Below are positions 8,033-47,778 of a stretch of 47,778 nt of DNA, piece by piece. The notes beneath the pieces were generated by a model. That model had not been told where the DNA came from, did no database searches, and saw only the letters and a program-made list of their open reading frames with translations. Both the position numbers and the translations under genes were made by a program. This stretch comes from Candidatus Coproplasma excrementipullorum. GTDB lineage: Bacteria > Bacillota > Clostridia > Christensenellales > Borkfalkiaceae. Position 1 is the stretch's first letter; each line of letters opens with the position of its first letter. The DNA is taken from NCBI GenBank assembly GCA_018714165.1, contig DVNU01000053.1, forward strand, positions 1-47,778, written 5' to 3'.

Positions 8033-8836
8033 TTAAAGGTCTATGCCGAACTTATAGAGTTCGTTTTTGGGCACGCCCCTGTCCTTTGCGGCCTGCTTTA
8101 CGGCCGACTTTTTGTCCATTCCCCGGGCCATATAGTGGGCTATATGCTCGCGTTCGGACAGATTGTTGAGGGGATTTTCCACCTCGCCCGCGCCCTCGAC
8201 GATGAGCACATATTCCCCCCTCTTTTCGCCCGCAAGCCCCCCGGCCAGGGTGAAGGGCGTGGCCTGTTCGTGCACCTTGGTTATCTCGCGCACGGCCGAG
8301 GCTCGCCTGTCGCCGAAAACGGCGTACATGTCGCATATATAGCGGTCTACGTCCTGCGGGGCGGCGTGAAAGCAGAGGGTCAGATCGAGGTCTTTATACC
8401 TCTGCAAAAAGCGCCTGCGCTCGCCCTCCTTGTCGGGCAGAAAGCCCAAAAAGGCGAACCTTTCGGCGGGCAGGGCGGAGAGAACGAGGGCCGAGAGAAA
8501 GGCGTTTGCGCCGGGGACTATGGTATAGTCCACGCCCGCCTCCCTGAGGCGCACGCAGACGGTGTTGCCGGGGTCGGAGATGACGGGCATGCCCGCGTCC
8601 GAGATTACGGCCACCTGCTTGCCCTCGCGCGCGGCGGAAATTATCTTTTCGGCCGCCTGATTTTCGTTGAACTTGTGGCAGGAAAGCAGGGGCTTTTTTA
8701 TGTCGTACGCGTTTAAAAGCTTCAATGAATGGCGGGTGTCCTCGCAGAAGATGACGTCCGCCGCCCGCAAAACTTCAAGCGCGCGCAGGGAGATATCTTT
8801 TAAGTTGCCTATTGGGGTAGAGACGAAAGTAACCAT
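8033..8836 (-). CDS. rsmI: 16S rRNA (cytidine(1402)-2'-O)-methyltransferase RsmI
   Basis: SAM-dependent methyltransferase of the tetrapyrrole-methylase fold that methylates the ribose of C1402 in the 16S decoding centre. Motifs: VSTPIGNLKDISLRALE at the N-terminus, AADVIFCEDTRHS, SDAGMPVISDPG and VPGANAFLSALVLSALP, with a C-terminal helical domain. 267 residues, normal length. The start is the ATG at 8836 (MVTFVSTPIGNL); the frame is open to 8935 through a repeat array, but that stretch is array sequence. No Shine-Dalgarno is obvious. It lies downstream of the trmN-like gene as yabC lies near yabB in Bacillus. Confidence 0.95.
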   Translation of the reverse strand: MVTFVSTPIGNLKDISLRALEVLRAADVIFCEDTRHSLKLLNAYDIKKPLLSCHKFNENQAAEKIISAAREGKQVAVISDAGMPVISDPGNTVCVRLREAGVDYTIVPGANAFLSALVLSALPAERFAFLGFLPDKEGERRRFLQRYKDLDLTLCFHAAPQDVDRYICDMYAVFGDRRASAVREITKVHEQATPFTLAGGLAGEKRGEYVLIVEGAGEVENPLNNLSEREHIAHYMARGMDKKSAVKQAAKDRGVPKNELYKFGIDL

Positions 8837-8842
8837 AGATAT

Positions 8843-9101
8843 GTGAAATGCAAACTGTGTTTGCGTGAAACGCGCCTTCAGCGCGTGAAATAAATACCTG
8901 ACGGTATTTGTGAAATACACAGCTGCGCTGTGCATTACGGCACAATTTATGCGGCTACGCCGCAGACATACTCACCGAAACGCAACCTGTAAGGTTGCAT
9001 TTCACGCCGCCTTTGACAGGGCTGTTTGAAATGAGGAGTTGAGGAGGTATTTCATTCCGCGAAGCGGAATTTAACGCGCGCCTTTATGGCGCGCATCTCA
9101 C
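8843..9101. repeat. modular hairpin array, class A (GTGAAAT joints), copy A1
   Basis: Left half: short perfect hairpins (GCAAAC/GTTTGC, CGCGC/GCGCG, AAATACC/GGTATTT, ACACAGC/GCTGTG) each introduced by GTGAAAT. Then a GCGGCTACGCCGC hairpin, a GCAACC/GGTTGC hairpin and the core GCCGCCTTTGACAGGGC...TTGAGGAGG. Right half: TTCCGC/GCGGAA and GCGCGCC/GGCGCGC, followed by ATCTCAC. The stop codon of the upstream trmN-like gene (9098-9100) lies inside the terminal CTCAC. Confidence 0.85.
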
Positions 9102-9790
9102 CCGTCCGATCCAGCGGGGGAGTTTACAACCGTCTGGAGAATCTCCAATCCCGGCCGTCCGCCCTTGGCGGCCTCCACCATTATAAGGTAGGGCTTGCCG
9201 CCCGGCGTGCCGGACACGAACTGCAACCGCTTGGGCTCAAGCGAACGCGCCTTGAGCAAATAGATGACCTCCGCCAGCCTGTCCGCGCGGTTGACGAGCG
9301 CAAACCTGCCGCCATACTTCAACTTGCGATAGGCGGCCTCTATAATTTCGGGCAGGGTTATGGTTATCTCCTTGCGGCAGACGGCCTTTTCGTAAGATAT
9401 GTTATCAAACCCGCCGCGCTCGTAGGGAGGATTGCAGAGAATTAAGGAAAACTTGTCGTCGTACTCCCTGCCGATATCCTGAAGGCGGCAGCAGACGACT
9501 TTTACATTTTCAAACCCGTTGTACTCCACCGTTCGGCGGGACATATCCGAAAGGCTGTGCTGCATTTCAAACAGCGTTACCCCCGATATATGGCCGTTCA
9601 AACACAAAAAATGCAGGCCGACTATGCCGCTGCCTGCGCAGAAATCGGCAACCTTGTCGCCCGCCTTTGCGCGCGCAAAGCGGGAGAGGAGAATACTGTC
9701 CGACGTGAAGCGGTAGAGCTCCTTGTTCTGTATTATCTTTTTGTCGCCGAAGAGTTCTTCTAAAACCTCGCCGGGATTGAGCGTTACCAT
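9098..9790 (-). CDS. tRNA1(Val) (adenine(37)-N6)-methyltransferase family (YabB/TrmN6-like)
   Basis: A class I SAM-dependent N6-adenine methyltransferase. Residues about 45-58 hold the SAM-binding motif (VADFCAGSGIVGL) and the catalytic NPPY motif follows (CNPPYERGGF), which marks N6-adenine targets. The N-terminal region (MVTLNPGEVLEELFGDKK, then YRFTSDSILLSRFA) is typical of the YabB/YfiC group. 230 residues, normal. The ATG at 9790 has GAGG seven bases upstream; the two codons before it begin with TTG and are less likely. It belongs to the holB-ricT-yabB-rsmI order known in Firmicutes. The exact tRNA target is inferred from family. Confidence 0.88.
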   Translation of the reverse strand: MVTLNPGEVLEELFGDKKIIQNKELYRFTSDSILLSRFARAKAGDKVADFCAGSGIVGLHFLCLNGHISGVTLFEMQHSLSDMSRRTVEYNGFENVKVVCCRLQDIGREYDDKFSLILCNPPYERGGFDNISYEKAVCRKEITITLPEIIEAAYRKLKYGGRFALVNRADRLAEVIYLLKARSLEPKRLQFVSGTPGGKPYLIMVEAAKGGRPGLEILQTVVNSPAGSDG

Positions 9791-9844
9791 AAACAAACCT
9801 CGCCGTGCGCGGCAGGGCGCACAAAAAATAAAAGGAGCGGGAAC

Positions 9845-10233: not shown

Positions 10234-11112
10234 TCAGTCGAGCAGTTTTTTGAGCTCCTCCTCGTCGACCTGCTCCTCCTCGTTGCTTACGGGCGCGGGG
10301 CCGCCGCGGCGGAATTTGATCTTGTCGGCGGGGAAGTCGCGGTAGGTGACGGCGTCCTTCTGCTCTATCTTGACCTTTACTTCCATCTTAAGCATATTGA
10401 CCGAAACCACGTGGCCCTTGCCTTCGGGCGTGTCCACCTCGGAGCCGAGCTTGGGCACCTTTTTGCAGGCCTCGGCGTAGTAATCGTTTTCATACGAAAG
10501 ACAGCACATCAGTCTGCCGCACAACCCCGAAATTTTGCCGGGATTGAGCGAAAGACCCTGGTTTTTGGCCATCTTTATGGAGACCTTTTTGAAGTCGGGC
10601 ATACAGCTGGAGCAACAGCACTCCCTTCCGCAGGGCGCTATGCCGCCTATCATTTTAATTTCGTCGCGGATGCCTATCTGGCGGAGCTCTATGCGCAGTC
10701 TGAATGCCGAGGAGAGCTCCTTTACCAGCTCTCTGAAGTCCACTCTGCCGTCGGCGGTGAAGTAGAAGGTGACTTTGCTGCCGTCGAAGGCGAATTCGCA
10801 GTCGACTATCTTCATTACCAGCCCGCACTTTTCGGCCTTTTCGCGCACGAGTCTGATCGCGTCCTCCTTCCTCTCCTCGTTGCGGCGGACGGTCTCCCTG
10901 TCCCTATCGGTGGCGATGCGCACTATGGGCTTTAAGGGGGAGACGATCTTGTCGTCCTCAACCTCTGCCAGGGGAATGACCACGGTGGCGAACTCCAGCC
11001 CGCGCGCCGTTTCGACAATGACGTCCATACCCTTCCGGTAGGTGTCCTTGCCGGGTGCAAAGTAGTATACCTTGCAGCCGTTTTTGAATTTTATACCAAC
11101 AATTTTTTCCAT
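10234..11112 (-). CDS. ricT: PSP1-domain regulator RicT (YaaT)
   Basis: 292 residues. The PSP1 C-terminal domain occupies about residues 55-150 and carries the family's Cys-rich signatures: a CGREC-type cluster with CCCSSC near residue 165-175 and GLCGRLMCCLSYE near 200. In Bacillus, RicT works with RicA and RicF in an Fe-S-bearing complex that directs RNase Y processing and affects sporulation; this is family knowledge. The C-terminal 25 residues are acidic and variable. The ATG at 11112 lies 22 bases inside holB, so the two are translationally coupled. The ricF and ricA genes are not in the window. Confidence 0.93.
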   Translation of the reverse strand: MEKIVGIKFKNGCKVYYFAPGKDTYRKGMDVIVETARGLEFATVVIPLAEVEDDKIVSPLKPIVRIATDRDRETVRRNEERKEDAIRLVREKAEKCGLVMKIVDCEFAFDGSKVTFYFTADGRVDFRELVKELSSAFRLRIELRQIGIRDEIKMIGGIAPCGRECCCSSCMPDFKKVSIKMAKNQGLSLNPGKISGLCGRLMCCLSYENDYYAEACKKVPKLGSEVDTPEGKGHVVSVNMLKMEVKVKIEQKDAVTYRDFPADKIKFRRGGPAPVSNEEEQVDEEELKKLLD

Positions 11113-12020
11113 TTATCGTTCTCCGTAATTACGCCGCAGGTGAGGTTGAACAGAAGGGAGGAGAAATTTGCATTGAACTTCAGGTCCTCCAGCGCCTTGT
11201 TTACGGCGTTTACCGCGTACAACAGTGCGGGCCGCGTGAAGATTGAGCCGCACATATCCTGTGACGAAAGGCTTTTTTTGAGCTCCTGAAAGTAGATGCG
11301 CTGAACCTGGCGCAACAGCTCGGTCTTTTCCTTTACGTCTGCATATTTCAAACTGACGTCCCCCGCCTTGCCTAAAGTTGAGGCCGAAGCCACCTCGTTT
11401 GCGGCGGACAAAATTTCCTTGAACCACCCGCCGGAGACCATGGCCTGGGCCTGTCCGAATATGCCCGAACAGCTGGCCGCGGCCAGCGCGTTGAGCTGTT
11501 TATCGCCCCCTGCGCGGTTGAGCGCGGAGAGAATCGCTCCCTCGGAAAAGGGCTCTATCTCCAGCAGTTTTACGCGCGAACGCACCGTCTGCAAAATTGG
11601 CGCAAGGGAAGTTGTGCCCAGAAGAAAGTACACACCGCGTGGCGGCTCCTCCAAAAGCTTTAAAAGCTTGTTCTGGACGAGGGCGGAGGCCTCGTCGAAG
11701 CAGGTGAAGATGTAGAGCTTTTTGTCGCCTTCGATGGGCTGAAGGGCGCTGTCGGCCGAAATTTCGTCGGCGTCTGCGACGGACGGCTTTTTGCCGGCGG
11801 CTGGATATATCTTGACATCCGAAAAGCTTTCGCCCATAATGAGCGAGCCCTCGCGACGGCTCTCGTCCGTTTCAAAGAGCGCCATTGCGAAGTATTTGAG
11901 CGCAAAGCGCAGGCTGGCCTCGTCCTGAAAGTACAGCATATATGCGTGCGAAGCGCGGCCTGCGGCCACGTCGCGCTTGAAGATTGCATATGCAGTTGTG
12001 CTTTCAAGAAGTTGACGCAT
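11091..12020 (-). CDS. holB: DNA polymerase III delta' subunit
   Basis: Clamp-loader subunit of the AAA+ superfamily, 309 residues. Recognisable parts: the SHAYML start of the ATPase domain, the ADADEISADSALQP segment that matches the usual DQIRxLQxx region, the QNKLLKLLEEPP motif (about residue 116-127) and the SRVKLLEIEPFS stretch. There is no intact P-loop, as expected for many delta' proteins. It overlaps ricT by 22 bases. Position after tmk and before ricT matches the Firmicute operon. The yaaQ and yaaR genes that usually separate tmk from holB are missing and a repeat array sits there instead. Confidence 0.93.
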   Translation of the reverse strand: MRQLLESTTAYAIFKRDVAAGRASHAYMLYFQDEASLRFALKYFAMALFETDESRREGSLIMGESFSDVKIYPAAGKKPSVADADEISADSALQPIEGDKKLYIFTCFDEASALVQNKLLKLLEEPPRGVYFLLGTTSLAPILQTVRSRVKLLEIEPFSEGAILSALNRAGGDKQLNALAAASCSGIFGQAQAMVSGGWFKEILSAANEVASASTLGKAGDVSLKYADVKEKTELLRQVQRIYFQELKKSLSSQDMCGSIFTRPALLYAVNAVNKALEDLKFNANFSSLLFNLTCGVITENDKWKKLLV

Positions 12021-12024
12021 AAGT

Positions 12025-12310
12025 GTGCGGCCTCCGCCGCAATTGCGCTTTCAGCGCGTGAAATGTTGCTTTCGCAACGTGAAATGCAAGCTACAGCTTG
12101 CGTGAAATGGCTACGCCGTGAAATGCACTGCTGCGCTGTGCGTTATGGCATAAATTATGCGGCGAAGCCGCAGAAATACTGACCTCAACGCAACCTGAAA
12201 AGGTTGCATTTCACACCGCCTTTGACAGGGCCGATTGAAATGAGGAATTGAGGCGGTATTTCACTCCGCGAAGCGGAATTTAGCGCGCGCCTTTATGGCG
12301 CGCATTTCAC
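12025..12310. repeat. modular hairpin array, class A, copy A2
   Basis: The clearest copy. In order: CGCGC-type, GTTGC/GCAAC, GCAAGC/GCTTGC, GGCTACGCC and GCAC...GTGC hairpins, each preceded by GTGAAAT; then GCGGCGAAGCCGC, GCAACC/GGTTGC plus ATTTCAC; the core ACCGCCTTTGACAGGGC...TTGAGGCGGT; then ATTTCAC, TCCGCGAAGCGGA, GCGCGCC/GGCGCGC and ATTTCAC. It lies inside the tmk-holB operon gap. Confidence 0.88.
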
Positions 12311-12322
12311 TGTCGAGTACAG

Positions 12323-12949
12323 TTACCCCTTCACTATTCCCCTCTCCACAAAGAGTTGCCAGATCTTATCGCCCGTCTCGTACTTTGTACCCGAACAGTC
12401 TATGGGGCAGATGTCGGGATACCTGCGCGCGAGCGCAAGATAGCCCTCGTACACCTTTTTATGGAAGGCGAGGCCGAGCTGTTCAATTCTGTCCCCCTCG
12501 TCGGCGCCGTGCTTACGCTCGAAGGCGTCTTCGGGGGAGATGTTGAGAAATATAGTAAGGTCGGGAGGACAGTTTTTGAGCGCAAAGGCGTTGATATCTG
12601 CCACATAGTCCTCGCCCAATCCCCTTGCGTAGCCCTGGTAGGCCAGCGAGGAATAGACGTATCGGTCGCAGATGACGAGCTTGCCCGCCTCAAGCGCGGG
12701 AATGACGCGCTCCTTTAAATGCTGGACGCGCGCGGCGGCGTATAACAGGGCCTCGCACTCGTCGCACATGGCCGTGTTCCTGCCGTCGAGAATAATTTCG
12801 CGTATGCGCTCGGCGATGGGACTGCCGCCCGGTTCGCGGGTGAGGATATAGTCGACGCCCGCCTCGTCAAGTTTTTGGGCGAGAAGTTTGAGCTGTGTGC
12901 TCTTGCCCGAACCTTCGCAACCTTCAAAGGTAACAAAAAAGCCTTTCAT
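12323..12949 (-). CDS. tmk: thymidylate kinase
   Basis: Phosphorylates dTMP to dTDP with ATP. The P-loop is FEGCEGSGKST (residues 8-18), the DR(Y/F) motif is DRYVYSSLAYQG (about 93-104), followed by the lid region, and the TREPGG substrate motif lies near residue 38. 208 residues, normal. Its start overlaps the stop of the upstream decarboxylase gene by four bases (ATGA-type), so the two are coupled, as for yaaO-tmk in Bacillus. Confidence 0.96.
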   Translation of the reverse strand: MKGFFVTFEGCEGSGKSTQLKLLAQKLDEAGVDYILTREPGGSPIAERIREIILDGRNTAMCDECEALLYAAARVQHLKERVIPALEAGKLVICDRYVYSSLAYQGYARGLGEDYVADINAFALKNCPPDLTIFLNISPEDAFERKHGADEGDRIEQLGLAFHKKVYEGYLALARRYPDICPIDCSGTKYETGDKIWQLFVERGIVKG

Positions 12950-17267: not shown

Positions 17268-17333
17268 GATGAAATGCAGGCCTGCGTCCTGCGTGAAATA
17301 AAAACGGCAGGCCGCTTAAACGGCGCATTTCAC
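17268..17333. repeat. small class A hairpin array, copy A6 (no core)
   Basis: ATGAAAT, GCAGGCCTGCGTCCTGC hairpin, GTGAAAT, a GCCG...CGGC module and ATTTCAC, just before the stop codon of the aminotransferase gene. It has the joint sequences but lacks the CCGCC...GGCGG core. Confidence 0.6.
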
Positions 17334-21565: not shown

Positions 21566-21770
21566 GGTGAAAAGAGCGTGAAAGCATTACGCTCCGCAGT
21601 GAAATGCAGGCCCGCGGCCTGCGTGAAATGGCTGCGCCGTGAAATGCCGCCTCAACTCCTCTTTTCAATCAACGCTGTCAAAGGCGGCAAAGCACGTTCA
21701 ATGTGATGTGTTGGGGTGCATTTCACAAATACCGCAGGTATTTATTTCACACACCGAAGGTGTATTTCAC
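21566..21770. repeat. modular hairpin array, class A, copy A3 (core reversed)
   Basis: GTGAAA joints, a GCAGGCCCGCGGCCTGC hairpin, GGCTGCGCC, then the core read as GCCGCCTCAACTCCTC...TGTCAAAGGCGGC (the opposite orientation to A1, A2 and A4). It continues with AAATACCGCAGGTATTT and ACACCGAAGGTGT hairpins joined by ATTTCAC. It sits between two minus-strand genes. Confidence 0.82.
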
Positions 21771-21780
21771 TATTATCTGA

Positions 21781-22791
21781 TTACTTGGCTTTTATCGAAA
21801 TTCCTGTATTTGCATCCTGATACATCACCCAGTAACCGCCGCCGTCGACGGGCACGTATGCCGCTCGGCCCTTTAAACTTTCGGGGCAGGGCGCGCCCGA
21901 AGCTACGGGCACGCCGTAGCACAGATATTTTGCACTGCCCCCGTCATATATCACGCCGAACGCATAGTGCGCGCCGTTGCCGTATGTGATTTTGGCCCAG
22001 CGCGAGCCGTCGATTACGTCCTCCAGCGCCTCGGCGCGGGGATAGGTGGAGAATATCTTTTTTATGTCTCCGCTCATCCTCTCATAGAACCCGCCGCCCG
22101 CAAGCTTTGGCTGAGCCGGCTCGTCGTCCTCTTCGGCGCGGAATTCTTCGCCCTCCTCTTCGGGAGAGCCGCCTATATGGAAGGCGCTGGTGGCGCACTT
22201 TATGGGCTTTTCATCCGACTCTGCGCCTTCTCCGCTCTGTTGCTCTGCGCAGGCAGACGGCGCGCTCTCGCCAGCGCCAGCAGTCTCTTCATGCGCGTCA
22301 ACTCCGCGCTCCTCTTCGGCCTCTTCAGGCGGGCGTACAGGGCCGCCGTTTTCATCAGCTTCCAGTTCATAATAATTTTCGTCGGCAATGGCTTCGTCGT
22401 CGTAGCTCGTCCGGGCGGCGCTCTCCTCGTGCTCGATGGCGCTCTGCACCGAGGCGAGAAGTTTTTGGTTGTCGCCGCAAACGGCGCAGGCGACGGGCGC
22501 CACCGAACCCGCACGGCAGAAGGTTATGAGGCAAGCAAAACCGTCAGTGGGGTCGAAGGGACACTCGCCCTCGTAAGCGGGCGAATCGAAGATGACCGCC
22601 GACGAGCCGTCGGTTATGCCGATACGGTAACACCCCTCGGTGAGGGGCGCGAAATTTATGAGCGAGGCTTCGGCCTTGAAATATCCCGCGTATGCCTCGC
22701 AGCGCACCAGACCCTTGAGCTCGCCGCCGTCGGCCGAGTAGCCGGCCTTTAAAGTTTTTATGAGCGCTATCCTTTTGACGTAACCTGCCAT
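21781..22791 (-). CDS. uncharacterised two-domain protein with acidic linker
   Basis: 336 residues. The N-terminal domain (about 1-115) is beta-rich, with Cys residues and a short CAVCGDN motif near 104. The middle (about 118-230) is a low-complexity Glu/Ala/Asp-rich linker. The C-terminal domain (about 235-336) is compact and aromatic-rich, with RWAKITYGNGAHYAFGVIYD, YLCYGVPV and GYWVMYQDANTG motifs. I believe the N- and C-terminal motifs recur in clostridial hypothetical proteins, but I know no function. GGGAG precedes the ATG at 22791. No signal peptide is visible. Confidence 0.78.
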   Translation of the reverse strand: MAGYVKRIALIKTLKAGYSADGGELKGLVRCEAYAGYFKAEASLINFAPLTEGCYRIGITDGSSAVIFDSPAYEGECPFDPTDGFACLITFCRAGSVAPVACAVCGDNQKLLASVQSAIEHEESAARTSYDDEAIADENYYELEADENGGPVRPPEEAEEERGVDAHEETAGAGESAPSACAEQQSGEGAESDEKPIKCATSAFHIGGSPEEEGEEFRAEEDDEPAQPKLAGGGFYERMSGDIKKIFSTYPRAEALEDVIDGSRWAKITYGNGAHYAFGVIYDGGSAKYLCYGVPVASGAPCPESLKGRAAYVPVDGGGYWVMYQDANTGISIKAK

Positions 22792-22900: not shown

Positions 22901-23142
22901 CACGAAATGCGCGGGCGTTGCCCGCGCGTGAAATACCTGCGGTATTCGTGAAATACACAGCTACGCTGTGCGTTATGGCAAAAATTATGCGACACAGCCG
23001 AAGAAATACTCACCTCAACGCAACCGAAAGGTTGCATTTCACACCGCCTTCGAAAGAACTGATTGGAATGAGGAGCTGAGGCGGTATTTCACGAAAACGT
23101 TTATAACGTTTTCATTTCACGCACGATGTAATCGTGCATTTC
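22901..23142. repeat. modular hairpin array, class A, copy A4
   Basis: GTGAAAT-joined hairpins (GCGCGGG/CCCGCGC, ATACCTGCGGTAT, ACACAGCTACGCTGTG), then GCAACCGAAAGGTTGC plus ATTTCAC. The core ACCGCCTTCGAAAGAACTGATTGG...GAGGCGGT follows, then ATTTCAC and GAAAACGTTTATAACGTTTTC and CACGATGTAATCGTG hairpins. The core here has diverged inside, but its ends and flanking joints are kept. Confidence 0.82.
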
Positions 23143-23144
23143 TC

Positions 23145-23421: not shown

Positions 23422-25233
23422 ATGGCACTTACCAAGAATAAGAAAGTACTCGACTTTGTAGCCGAAAGCGCCGAACTTGCCCAGCCCGACCAGATAGTTT
23501 GGATTACGGGCGAACCCGCCCAGCTCGACGAGTTGAGGAAAGAGGCCGTAAAGAGTGGCGAACTAATAAAACTCAACCAGAGTATTCTGCCCGACTGCTA
23601 CCTGCACAGAACAAAGGTAAACGACGTTGCCCGCGTTGAGGACAGAACCTTCATCTGCACCAGTGATAAAGACGATGCAGGCCCCGTCAACTACTGGATG
23701 GATCCCAAACAGGCGTATGAACTGGCTTCCGAAATTGCGCGCGGCTCGATGAAGGGCAGGACTATGTATGTCATCCCCTATTCGATGGGCGTCGTCGGCT
23801 CTCCCTTCGCACGCTACGGCATAGAAGTGACCGATTCCATCTACGTCGTCCTCAATATGGACATTATGACGCGCGTGGGAGCCAATGTCTTGAAGGCCAT
23901 CGGCCCCGACGGCGACTTTATAAAGGGATTCCATGCAAAGTGCAACGTTGACGCGGACAACCGCTACATTATGCACTTCCCCGAAGACAACACCATAATT
24001 TCGGTAAACTCCGCATACGGCGGCAACGTTCTTTTAGGTAAAAAGTGCTTTGCGCTGCGCATAGCCTCCTACCTCGGCAAGAACGAGGGCTGGATGGCAG
24101 AACATATGCTGATACTCGGCGTAACCTTCCCCAACGGCGAAAAGAAGTATGTTGCGGCGGCCTTCCCTTCGGCCTGCGGCAAGACCAACCTTGCAATGCT
24201 CATTCCCCCCAAACACTACCAGGAGAAGGGCTACAAGATTGAGTGCGTCGGCGACGACATCGCCTGGATACGCGTGGGCGCAGACGGCAGACTTTGGGCC
24301 GTAAACCCCGAAAACGGTTTCTTCGGCGTGGCTCCCGGCACCAACGACCACTCCAATCCCAACGCCCTGGCCGCAACGAGGCGCGGAACGATTTTCACCA
24401 ACGTCGCCCTCGACACCGACAATATGACGGTATGGTGGGAGGGCCTCAACAAGGATTTACCCGAACACTGCATAGACTGGACGGGCAAGCCCTGGAGCCC
24501 CGCAAAGTTCGACAAGAAGGATAAGTCGACCTACGCCGCCCATCCCAATTCGCGCTTCACGGCGCCTGCGGCAAACTGCCCCTGTGTTTCACCCGAATTC
24601 AACTCCAAGGAGGGCGTGCCCCTTTCGGCCATCATCTTCGGCGGCAGAAGGGCTACCACCGCTCCCCTGGTGTATCAGTCGAGGGACTGGAACCATGGTG
24701 TGTTCATAGGTTCGGCTATGTCCTCCGAGACGACTGCCGCCGCCACGGGCGCAACGGGCGTTCTGCGCCACGACCCCATGGCAATGAAGCCCTTCGCGGG
24801 ATATCATATGGGCGACTACTTCCAGCACTGGATAGACATGGGCAAGGTTGTAAAGAATCCTCCCAAGATCTTCAACGTAAACTGGTTCAGACAGGACAAG
24901 GACGGAAACTTCATCTGGCCCGGCTTCGGTGACAATATGCGCGTGCTCGAATGGATTTTAAAGCGCTGCGACGACGGTGTGGACGCCGATGAGACGGCCA
25001 TAGGCTACGTGCCCAGACCCCAGGACATCGACCTTGAGGATATGGACTACGAAATCGCTCCCGGACACAAGTTCGGCCTTGAGGACCTTGAAGGCATACT
25101 CGAAGTAGACAAGGAAAAGTGGGCAAAAGAGGCCGACGAGATAGAGAGCTACTATAAGAACACCATAAAGACGAGGATCCCCGCAGAGCTGACAGAGTGT
25201 CTTGAGACGCTGAAAAAGAACTGCGCAAAGTAA
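23422..25233 (+). CDS. pckG: phosphoenolpyruvate carboxykinase (GTP)
   Basis: Interconverts oxaloacetate and PEP using GTP/GDP. 603 residues, typical of the GTP class (the ATP class is shorter and has a different P-loop context). Motifs: the P-loop with hyper-reactive Cys in FPSACGKTNLAML (about residue 249-261), the metal-binding GDDIAWIR, PNCPCVSP-type region (AANCPCVSPEF) and FGGRRATTAPLVY. A consensus AAGGAGATAT ribosome site precedes the ATG at 23422. It is a single gene with a long structured leader and its own terminator. In anaerobes it may run toward oxaloacetate as a CO2-fixing, energy-conserving step (inference). Confidence 0.97.
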   Translation: MALTKNKKVLDFVAESAELAQPDQIVWITGEPAQLDELRKEAVKSGELIKLNQSILPDCYLHRTKVNDVARVEDRTFICTSDKDDAGPVNYWMDPKQAYELASEIARGSMKGRTMYVIPYSMGVVGSPFARYGIEVTDSIYVVLNMDIMTRVGANVLKAIGPDGDFIKGFHAKCNVDADNRYIMHFPEDNTIISVNSAYGGNVLLGKKCFALRIASYLGKNEGWMAEHMLILGVTFPNGEKKYVAAAFPSACGKTNLAMLIPPKHYQEKGYKIECVGDDIAWIRVGADGRLWAVNPENGFFGVAPGTNDHSNPNALAATRRGTIFTNVALDTDNMTVWWEGLNKDLPEHCIDWTGKPWSPAKFDKKDKSTYAAHPNSRFTAPAANCPCVSPEFNSKEGVPLSAIIFGGRRATTAPLVYQSRDWNHGVFIGSAMSSETTAAATGATGVLRHDPMAMKPFAGYHMGDYFQHWIDMGKVVKNPPKIFNVNWFRQDKDGNFIWPGFGDNMRVLEWILKRCDDGVDADETAIGYVPRPQDIDLEDMDYEIAPGHKFGLEDLEGILEVDKEKWAKEADEIESYYKNTIKTRIPAELTECLETLKKNCAK

Positions 25234-47631: not shown

Positions 47632-47677
47632 ATAATTAATTAAGTAACATAATTTGCGCCGCGGCGCGGCTGGCACA

Positions 47678-47778
47678 GTGAAATGCGCGCTACGCGCGCG
47701 TGAAATTCCGCTTCGCGGAATGAAATACCGCCTCAACCCCTCATTTCAATCAACCATATCAAAGGCGGTGTGAAATGC
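47678..47778. repeat. modular hairpin array, class A, copy A5 (cut by window end)
   Basis: GTGAAAT, GCGCGCTACGCGCGC, GTGAAAT, TCCGCTTCGCGGA, TGAAAT, then the core in reversed orientation (ACCGCCTCAACCCCTC...ATCAAAGGCGGT), then GTGAAATGC at the edge. It lies upstream of spoIIR. Confidence 0.85.

Follow-up and report, generated by a model that had tools for sequence, protein, structure and literature searches.

Hairpin arrays joined by a heptamer in a Candidatus Coproplasma genome probably belong to a family of small mobile DNA elements with a four-helix-bundle protein gene

Introduction

The window analysed here is 47,778 nucleotides long and forms contig 33 in the genome of Candidatus Coproplasma excrementipullorum, which spans 1.72 Mb and is 81% complete. 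At five places in it, short hairpins are joined by the heptamer GTGAAAT on the left of a core and by ATTTCAC on the right. The question raised by this locus is what such arrays are: parts of a mobile element, structured RNAs, repeats that grew where they stand, or signals kept for gene expression. Two kinds of bacterial repeat offer a starting point for comparison. MITEs are short copies that lack a gene, have inverted ends and are related to a copy that bears one, and REP/BIME sequences, associated with RAYT, are inverted pairs of palindromes that share a constant foot.

Results

The heptamer GTGAAAT occurs 33 times in the window, compared with a mean of 6.2 and a maximum of 13 after shuffling, and the over-represented joint and the hairpins at five places were arranged as the original prediction had described them (Table 1). 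Some of its details needed amendment. The five places share joints and hairpins, but in the copy at 21566 the core is degenerate and shortened, and the copy at 47678-47778 has the same build but is cut by the window end, which is also the contig end. The joint and the core, proposed to be the only constant parts, do recur; some of the outer joints, however, are degenerate (ACGAAAT, ATCTCAC and ATTTCTC). Complete cores also carry a longer conserved element of ~43 nt, ACCGCC...GGCGGT, and an inner core motif, GTTRWGGT / ACCYCAAC, was seen by eye. Across the genome, 79 joint-unit-joint pieces were found, against 2 for a reversed control pattern, and the arrays read in selected stretches amount by our own count to about 30 elements or element parts. 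A lone hairpin at 17268-17333 that has GTGAAAT, together with a near ATTTCAC, is perhaps an element remnant.

The hairpins had been called perfect, and a perfect Watson-Crick stem of at least 4 is present in 53 of the 79 units (shuffled mean 0.67, maximum 5 in 500 rounds) but absent from the other 26. That the stems differ and keep pairing was borne out: the two halves of a unit paired in 48 of 70 distinct units, whereas halves exchanged among different units of equal size paired in 71 of 660 cases. Growth by addition of palindromes beside the heptamer is a possible process that would fit the varying number of units.

Table 1. Array copies in the window, their parts, neighbouring genes and Gut-1 matches
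Feature	Coordinates	Strand	Basis or remark
Copy 1, gene-less element	8843..9101	.	joints and hairpins
Methyltransferase gene, neighbour of copy 1	9101-9796	-	
rsmI, neighbour of copy 1	8036-8836	-	
Gut-1 matches, copy 1	8834-8896, 9044-9130		below cut-off
Copy 2, gene-less element	12025..12310	.	joints, hairpins, junction comparison, alignment to gene-bearing copy
tmk, neighbour of copy 2	12326-12949	-	
holB, neighbour of copy 2	11094-12020	-	
Gut-1 match, copy 2	12203-12312		over cut-off
Copy 2, left arm	12058..12124	+	hairpins joined by GTGAAAT
Copy 2, core	12125..12207	.	inner hairpins, GTTATGG / ACCTCAAC motif; place of the ORF in the gene-bearing copy
Copy 2, right arm	12208..12310	-	ACCGCC...GGCGGT at 12215-12257 and hairpins joined by ATTTCAC
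Copy 3, gene-less, shortened core	21566..21770	.	joints and hairpins
Gut-1 match, copy 3	21715-21788		below cut-off
Copy 4, gene-less	22902..23144	.	joints, hairpins, alignment to gene-bearing copy
PEP carboxykinase gene, with copy 4 upstream	23422-25230	+	
Copy 5, limited to left arm and long element	47678..47778	+	cut by contig end
Gut-1 match, copy 5	47676-47778		over cut-off

In a covariance-model search, two arms in the window exceeded the gathering score of Rfam RF01706, 'Gut-1 RNA', and the whole genome contains 37 matches, of which 9 are over the cut-off. The model extends over three hairpins joined by GUGAAAU, which is a single arm, and is without the inverted second arm and the core. 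The original prediction that the arrays match no known repeat family stands for the whole element, which RF01706 leaves undescribed, but not for one arm, which is Gut-1. Carriers of Gut-1 make up 7 of the 61 genomes in a set of relatives. Its presence in the genus is patchy, at 4 of 37 genomes including the source genome (32, 17, 34 and 2 matches); outside the genus, 3 of 24 genomes carry it. A scan of a larger collection for three joints in a row returned at least 119 stretches, many of them chance matches; among the matches listed, stretches with paired units came mostly from gut Clostridia MAGs, together with two Akkermansia/Akkermansiaceae MAGs. Among the matches listed from a viral scan, L193, L259 and L290 were kept as array-like, L259 being doubtful.

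The loops of the hairpins are biased on one strand. d(cGNNAg) constitutes a loop family. Read on the ATTTCAC strand, the triloops of distinct hairpins from the collection loci are closed by C-G in 56 of 57 cases and have the form GNA in 39 of 57, and the tetraloops have the form GNNA in 31 of 43, 13 of these 31 with a pyrimidine in third place. Loops of the type d(GNA) with a C-G closing pair are described as a stable DNA family in the available excerpt of PMC5815330. For the collection set, folding energies under DNA parameters favoured the ATTTCAC strand by 37 to 4 of 104 (p = 6e-8), and those under RNA parameters by 33 to 13, which was not significant (p = 0.09). In the source genome the loop bias is weaker (triloops closed by C-G in 27 of 29 and GNA in 15 of 29; tetraloops GNNA in 3 of 15), and the strands did not differ in energy, at 6 to 4 under both DNA and RNA parameters (not significant). 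The same tendency was seen in arrays built on other heptamers (16 loci, oriented by the analyst to the C-richer strand), with C-G closure in 68 of 76, GNA in 22 of 47 triloops against 4 TNC, and GNNA in 12 of 25 tetraloops against 1 TNNC. The occurrence of C(GNA)G and C(GNNA)G loops on one strand favours DNA over RNA, weakly so in the source genome.

Copies 1, 2 and 4 sit between or upstream of protein genes, and these three of the five sites were compared with their counterparts in relatives; in support of the proposed insertion, the junction was much shorter in most relatives. The tmk-holB junction (copy 2) measures 302 bp here and at most 14 bp in 21 of the 28 relatives with both genes, from 29 loci listed among 37 matching relatives. 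It is 10 bp in the closest listed relative, whose Tmk is 80% identical, and 28-241 bp in the other 7, whose genomes are without Gut-1 matches. The methyltransferase-rsmI junction (copy 1) measures 261 bp here and at most 16 bp in 12 of the 21 relatives with both genes, from a sample of 28 relatives' loci; it is 48 bp in the closest relative, and two are longer than here (363 and 1027 bp). At the copy 4 site, upstream of the PEP carboxykinase gene, the divergent gene is 631 bp away, compared with 164-346 bp in 16 of the 17 relatives with that gene and 828 bp in one. Long junctions without the element in some relatives (7 of 28 at tmk-holB and, with lengths of up to 1027 bp, 9 of 21 at rsmI) count against a mobile element.

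ORFs were compared stop to stop across 52 array loci, some of them chance loci. One family recurred in 6 of the 52, and in five of these the ORF lay at the array or no more than 35 bp away. The family is PF05635 (NCBIfam TIGR02436, 'four helix bundle protein'; solved relative 2rld), which also goes by the names 'S23' and '23S rRNA intervening sequence protein' and has no known catalytic domain. It exceeded the cut-off in 9 of the 61 genomes of the relatives set, 6 of which carry Gut-1; both were present in 6 genomes, PF05635 only in 3, Gut-1 only in 1 and neither in 51 (p = 1e-5). In a larger set of 297 genomes from the order, some of them shared with the 61, PF05635 was found in 69 and Gut-1 in 65, with 49 having both, 20 PF05635 only, 16 Gut-1 only and 212 neither (odds ratio 32, p = 5e-26); Gut-1 carriers may be missed in this larger set because no more than 15 candidates per genome were scored. 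A genome with 34 Gut-1 matches and no PF05635 match (G029, 76% complete), together with the 16 of the 65 genomes with Gut-1 in the larger set that are without PF05635 at the threshold used, speaks against a mobile element of this kind.

The PF05635 gene is absent from the window copies. It is present, however, in a further copy in this genome (L322, on contig 52), which consists of a left arm, the ORF and a right arm and has the same joint as the window. The two halves of this copy could be aligned to copies 1, 2 and 4 of the window, with a poorer alignment to copy 3. With copy 2 the identities are 47/58 and 58/79, and the scores are 53 and 69, compared with 27 and 30 for the best shuffled alignments; the gap between the aligned parts is 6 bp in copy 2 and about 404 bp in L322. 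These window copies look like the element of L322 without its gene. Two more PF05635 genes (L306 and L324) flank an apparent ruvB on contig 7 of the source genome (25023-27067) and adjoin telomere-like CCCTAAC/CCCTAAT heptamers; TTAGGG-type repeats also occur in the arrays adjoining L034 and L041.

Arrays of other heptamers surround PF05635 genes elsewhere. The joints are again 7 nt long (GTTAAAT, GTTATAT, GTGATAT, GTGATGC, ATGAAGC, GCGATAT and GTGATGT), and many loci have tandem heptamers without hairpins, inverted across the gene, such as (AATTCAG)n-gene-(CTGAATT)n, (AATGCAG)n-gene-(CTGCATT)n and (GAGAGTG)n-gene-(CACTCTC)n. PF05635 was present in 20 of the 22 genomes reached via contigs of other groups. 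The most frequent 7-mer reached a count of at least 5 near the gene in 29 of 42 loci, compared with 2 of 42 far from it, the 42 being the returned loci over the cut-off, with 7 below it or partial excluded; for 30 returned loci in other phyla the figures were 13 and 0. As this plain count is unclean, with a value of 5 reached by 6 of the 27 tmk controls and by 2 of the 7 Y1 controls, exact period-7 tandems were preferred as a measure. These occurred near the gene in 21 of 42 loci and far from it in 7 (other phyla, 14 and 3 of 30), and in 1 of 27 tmk controls. Periods 4, 5, 6 and 9 were not raised near PF05635, and period 8 gave 2 against 0 in each set; at one Flavobacterium gene (L355) the repeats look like period 8 rather than 7.

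A rough automatic rule divided 76 PF05635 loci into 35 tandem, 19 hairpin and 22 neither, with errors that include assigning the gene-bearing L322 to 'none' and calling L306 'hairpin' although it is tandem by eye. The 22 loci at which the rule detected no array count against the mobile-element reading. On a protein tree with few columns and weak support the array classes were clustered, the hairpin class requiring 10 changes against 16.0 when shuffled, and did not form one clade. Of 59 plasmid and phage records listed or counted, 12 were read by eye; each of the 12 showed arrays of heptamers or hairpins, in one case degenerate; the phage collection contained 2 records with a PF05635 protein.

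Plasmids allowed filled and empty sites to be compared. In a Trichormus plasmid the gene and its arrays lie between two genes, with GTAAT flanking the insert on both sides, and Tolypothrix and Nostoc carneum plasmids (97.8 and 97.5% identical) have the exact empty site. The gene and both inverted arrays form one 428-bp piece that is present or absent between near-identical plasmids. In a Scytonema plasmid the insert is shorter by two heptamers, and a Nostoc plasmid has a degenerate remnant. Two more plasmid groups include filled and empty forms with altered junction bases, and there is also one gene-less remnant. In Picosynechococcus PCC 7003 the gene lies between cas10 and cmr3, and pAQ6 of PCC 7002 is without it. 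In a Nostoc plasmid the element splits a TAATG stop/start overlap that is intact in two others, the repeated bases being ATG. As the end repeats differ by case in these plasmids (GTAAT; ATG), they do not point to a constant target duplication, which counts against a mobile element. In four plasmid loci (L429, L430, L432 and L434) the gene lies within defence operons, at cas10/cmr3, drmD/pglX, hsdS/hsdR and helicase/methylase junctions. In L439 and L440 (Nostoc plasmids), the gene for WP_114080759.1 is inserted one gene upstream of the junction that a different element occupies in L435, so that a single operon has taken insertions at two adjacent junctions.

Discussion

The explanation that we regard as probable is that small mobile DNA elements of one family end in these arrays, that the complete form of such an element carries a PF05635/TIGR02436 gene, and that the window copies are gene-less, MITE-like derivatives. 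A complete element would comprise one four-helix-bundle gene flanked by inverted arrays of an element-specific heptamer, and there appear to be two classes, one with heptamers in tandem and one, the class in the window, with the heptamer alternating with a small hairpin. Any need for the protein, and the way of moving, are inferences. The protein, which is a homopentamer in the solved relative, may act on the arrays as single-stranded or extruded DNA, and gene-less copies would be moved in trans. Cutting and joining would be carried out by host replication or repair enzymes, or by another enzyme; a mobilising enzyme was not found in a transposase search that covered Y1_Tnp only. The stems may be free to change because the shape and the heptamer are what would be recognised.

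Of the alternatives, passive growth of the arrays at gene junctions by slippage and recombination, with the PF05635 gene as a passenger or drawn to such places, would account for the varying number of units (L398 has two heptamers fewer than L390), for arrays without the gene and for the lack of a known enzyme. We consider it unlikely, however, as the gene and both inverted arrays come and go as one piece between near-identical plasmids, and the same core occurs with and without the gene. Slightly less likely still is that the arms are transcribed and work as structured non-coding RNA, in line with Rfam. Two window arms are over the gathering score, RNA hairpin energies are good on both strands, and PMC2864571, in the part available, lists Gut-1 from human gut samples and rates it most likely a non-coding RNA of unknown function. 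Against such a role stand the two arms in opposite orientation around a core, the roughly 30 dispersed copies, the lack of Gut-1 in most relatives and the same architecture built on other heptamers; the cGNAg/cGNNAg-type loops, with a pyrimidine in third place in 13 of 31 GNNA tetraloops, are also unlike the GNRA loops of RNA.

It is highly improbable that these are regulatory or terminator arrays kept for expression at operon junctions: they do lie at gene junctions, and some adjoin terminator-like hairpins by eye, but they are absent at the same junctions in most relatives, and their location can be explained by selection against insertion within genes. Movement of REP/BIME-like elements by a RAYT (Y1 transposase) is largely refuted and has almost nothing left to recommend it beyond the inverted pairing of palindromes that share a constant foot. 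The original prediction had suggested a search for RAYT/TnpA genes, and PF01797 turned out to be absent from 6 of the 7 Gut-1 carriers among the relatives, the source genome included, and present in 16 of the 54 non-carriers; the associated gene is PF05635 instead. Unlike REP/BIME sequences, the arrays show no Y1 association and have more hairpins per arm and a long core. A CRISPR array was ruled out by the 7-nt repeat and the palindromic units, as CRISPR has repeats of some 20-40 nt and unrelated, non-palindromic spacers.

Several known systems resemble the arrays in part. As in MITEs, there are inverted arms and a gene-bearing relative with the same ends, but the search for Y1_Tnp showed no associated transposase, the plasmid cases showed no constant target duplication, and the ends are arrays. 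Gut-1 corresponds to one arm, and differs as a family without the second inverted arm, core or gene that is read as RNA. The 23S rRNA intervening sequences with S23p, for example in Coxiella, are described in the excerpt of PMC4990558 as a selfish element, with tandem heptamers before the Coxiella ORF and a pentameric relative. The same protein family is encoded here, in the contig-52 copy and not in the window copies. Those sequences lie, according to the same excerpt, in 23S rRNA helices and are cut from the rRNA by RNase III, whereas the present elements are intergenic hairpin arrays with many copies per genome; no rRNA was found in the window by Rfam search, and a location in 23S rRNA was not seen. 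We file the elements as a variant of S23p-encoding selfish elements, which are themselves already known. Avd of the diversity-generating retroelements is a distant relative of the protein (NF033474 against a tandem-class protein, E = 6e-7, below the cut-off), but unlike in those retroelements no reverse transcriptase was seen in the elements read.

Heptamer repeats have been reported as over-represented or abundant elsewhere: GGGAATC in Xanthomonas and GGGGA(C/T)T in Nostoc (PMC4692102, in excerpt), and TAACTGA in Beggiatoaceae (PMC4679880, likewise). They too form dispersed intergenic arrays, some of them inverted, and the excerpts do not state a link to S23 or intervening sequences. Among the open-licence matches listed in a literature search, no paper joined S23/PF05635 to intergenic heptamer or Gut-1 arrays. 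A bolder proposal, which we regard as possible rather than probable, is that these elements make up a new class of transposable element that occurs in many bacterial phyla. The sole product would be a small protein, a four-helix bundle with no catalytic site known, the ends would be arrays of an element-specific heptamer, and movement would be as hairpin-folded single-stranded DNA; such elements, whole in part or decayed, would then be the source of much unexplained heptameric repeat content, of the Gut-1 'RNA' and of the intervening sequences in 23S rRNA.

The four-helix-bundle protein is listed as CRISPR-associated in the available portions of PMC3936711 and PMC10910872, which may be explained by insertion at operon junctions, including cas10-cmr3; arrays at PF05635 genes might conceivably also be mistaken for CRISPR arrays. 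The finding points to mobile DNA of a kind that is widespread in bacteria and poorly understood. If true, it would give one testable cause for the Gut-1 'RNA', for the over-represented heptameric repeats of many bacteria and for the S23/IVS protein.
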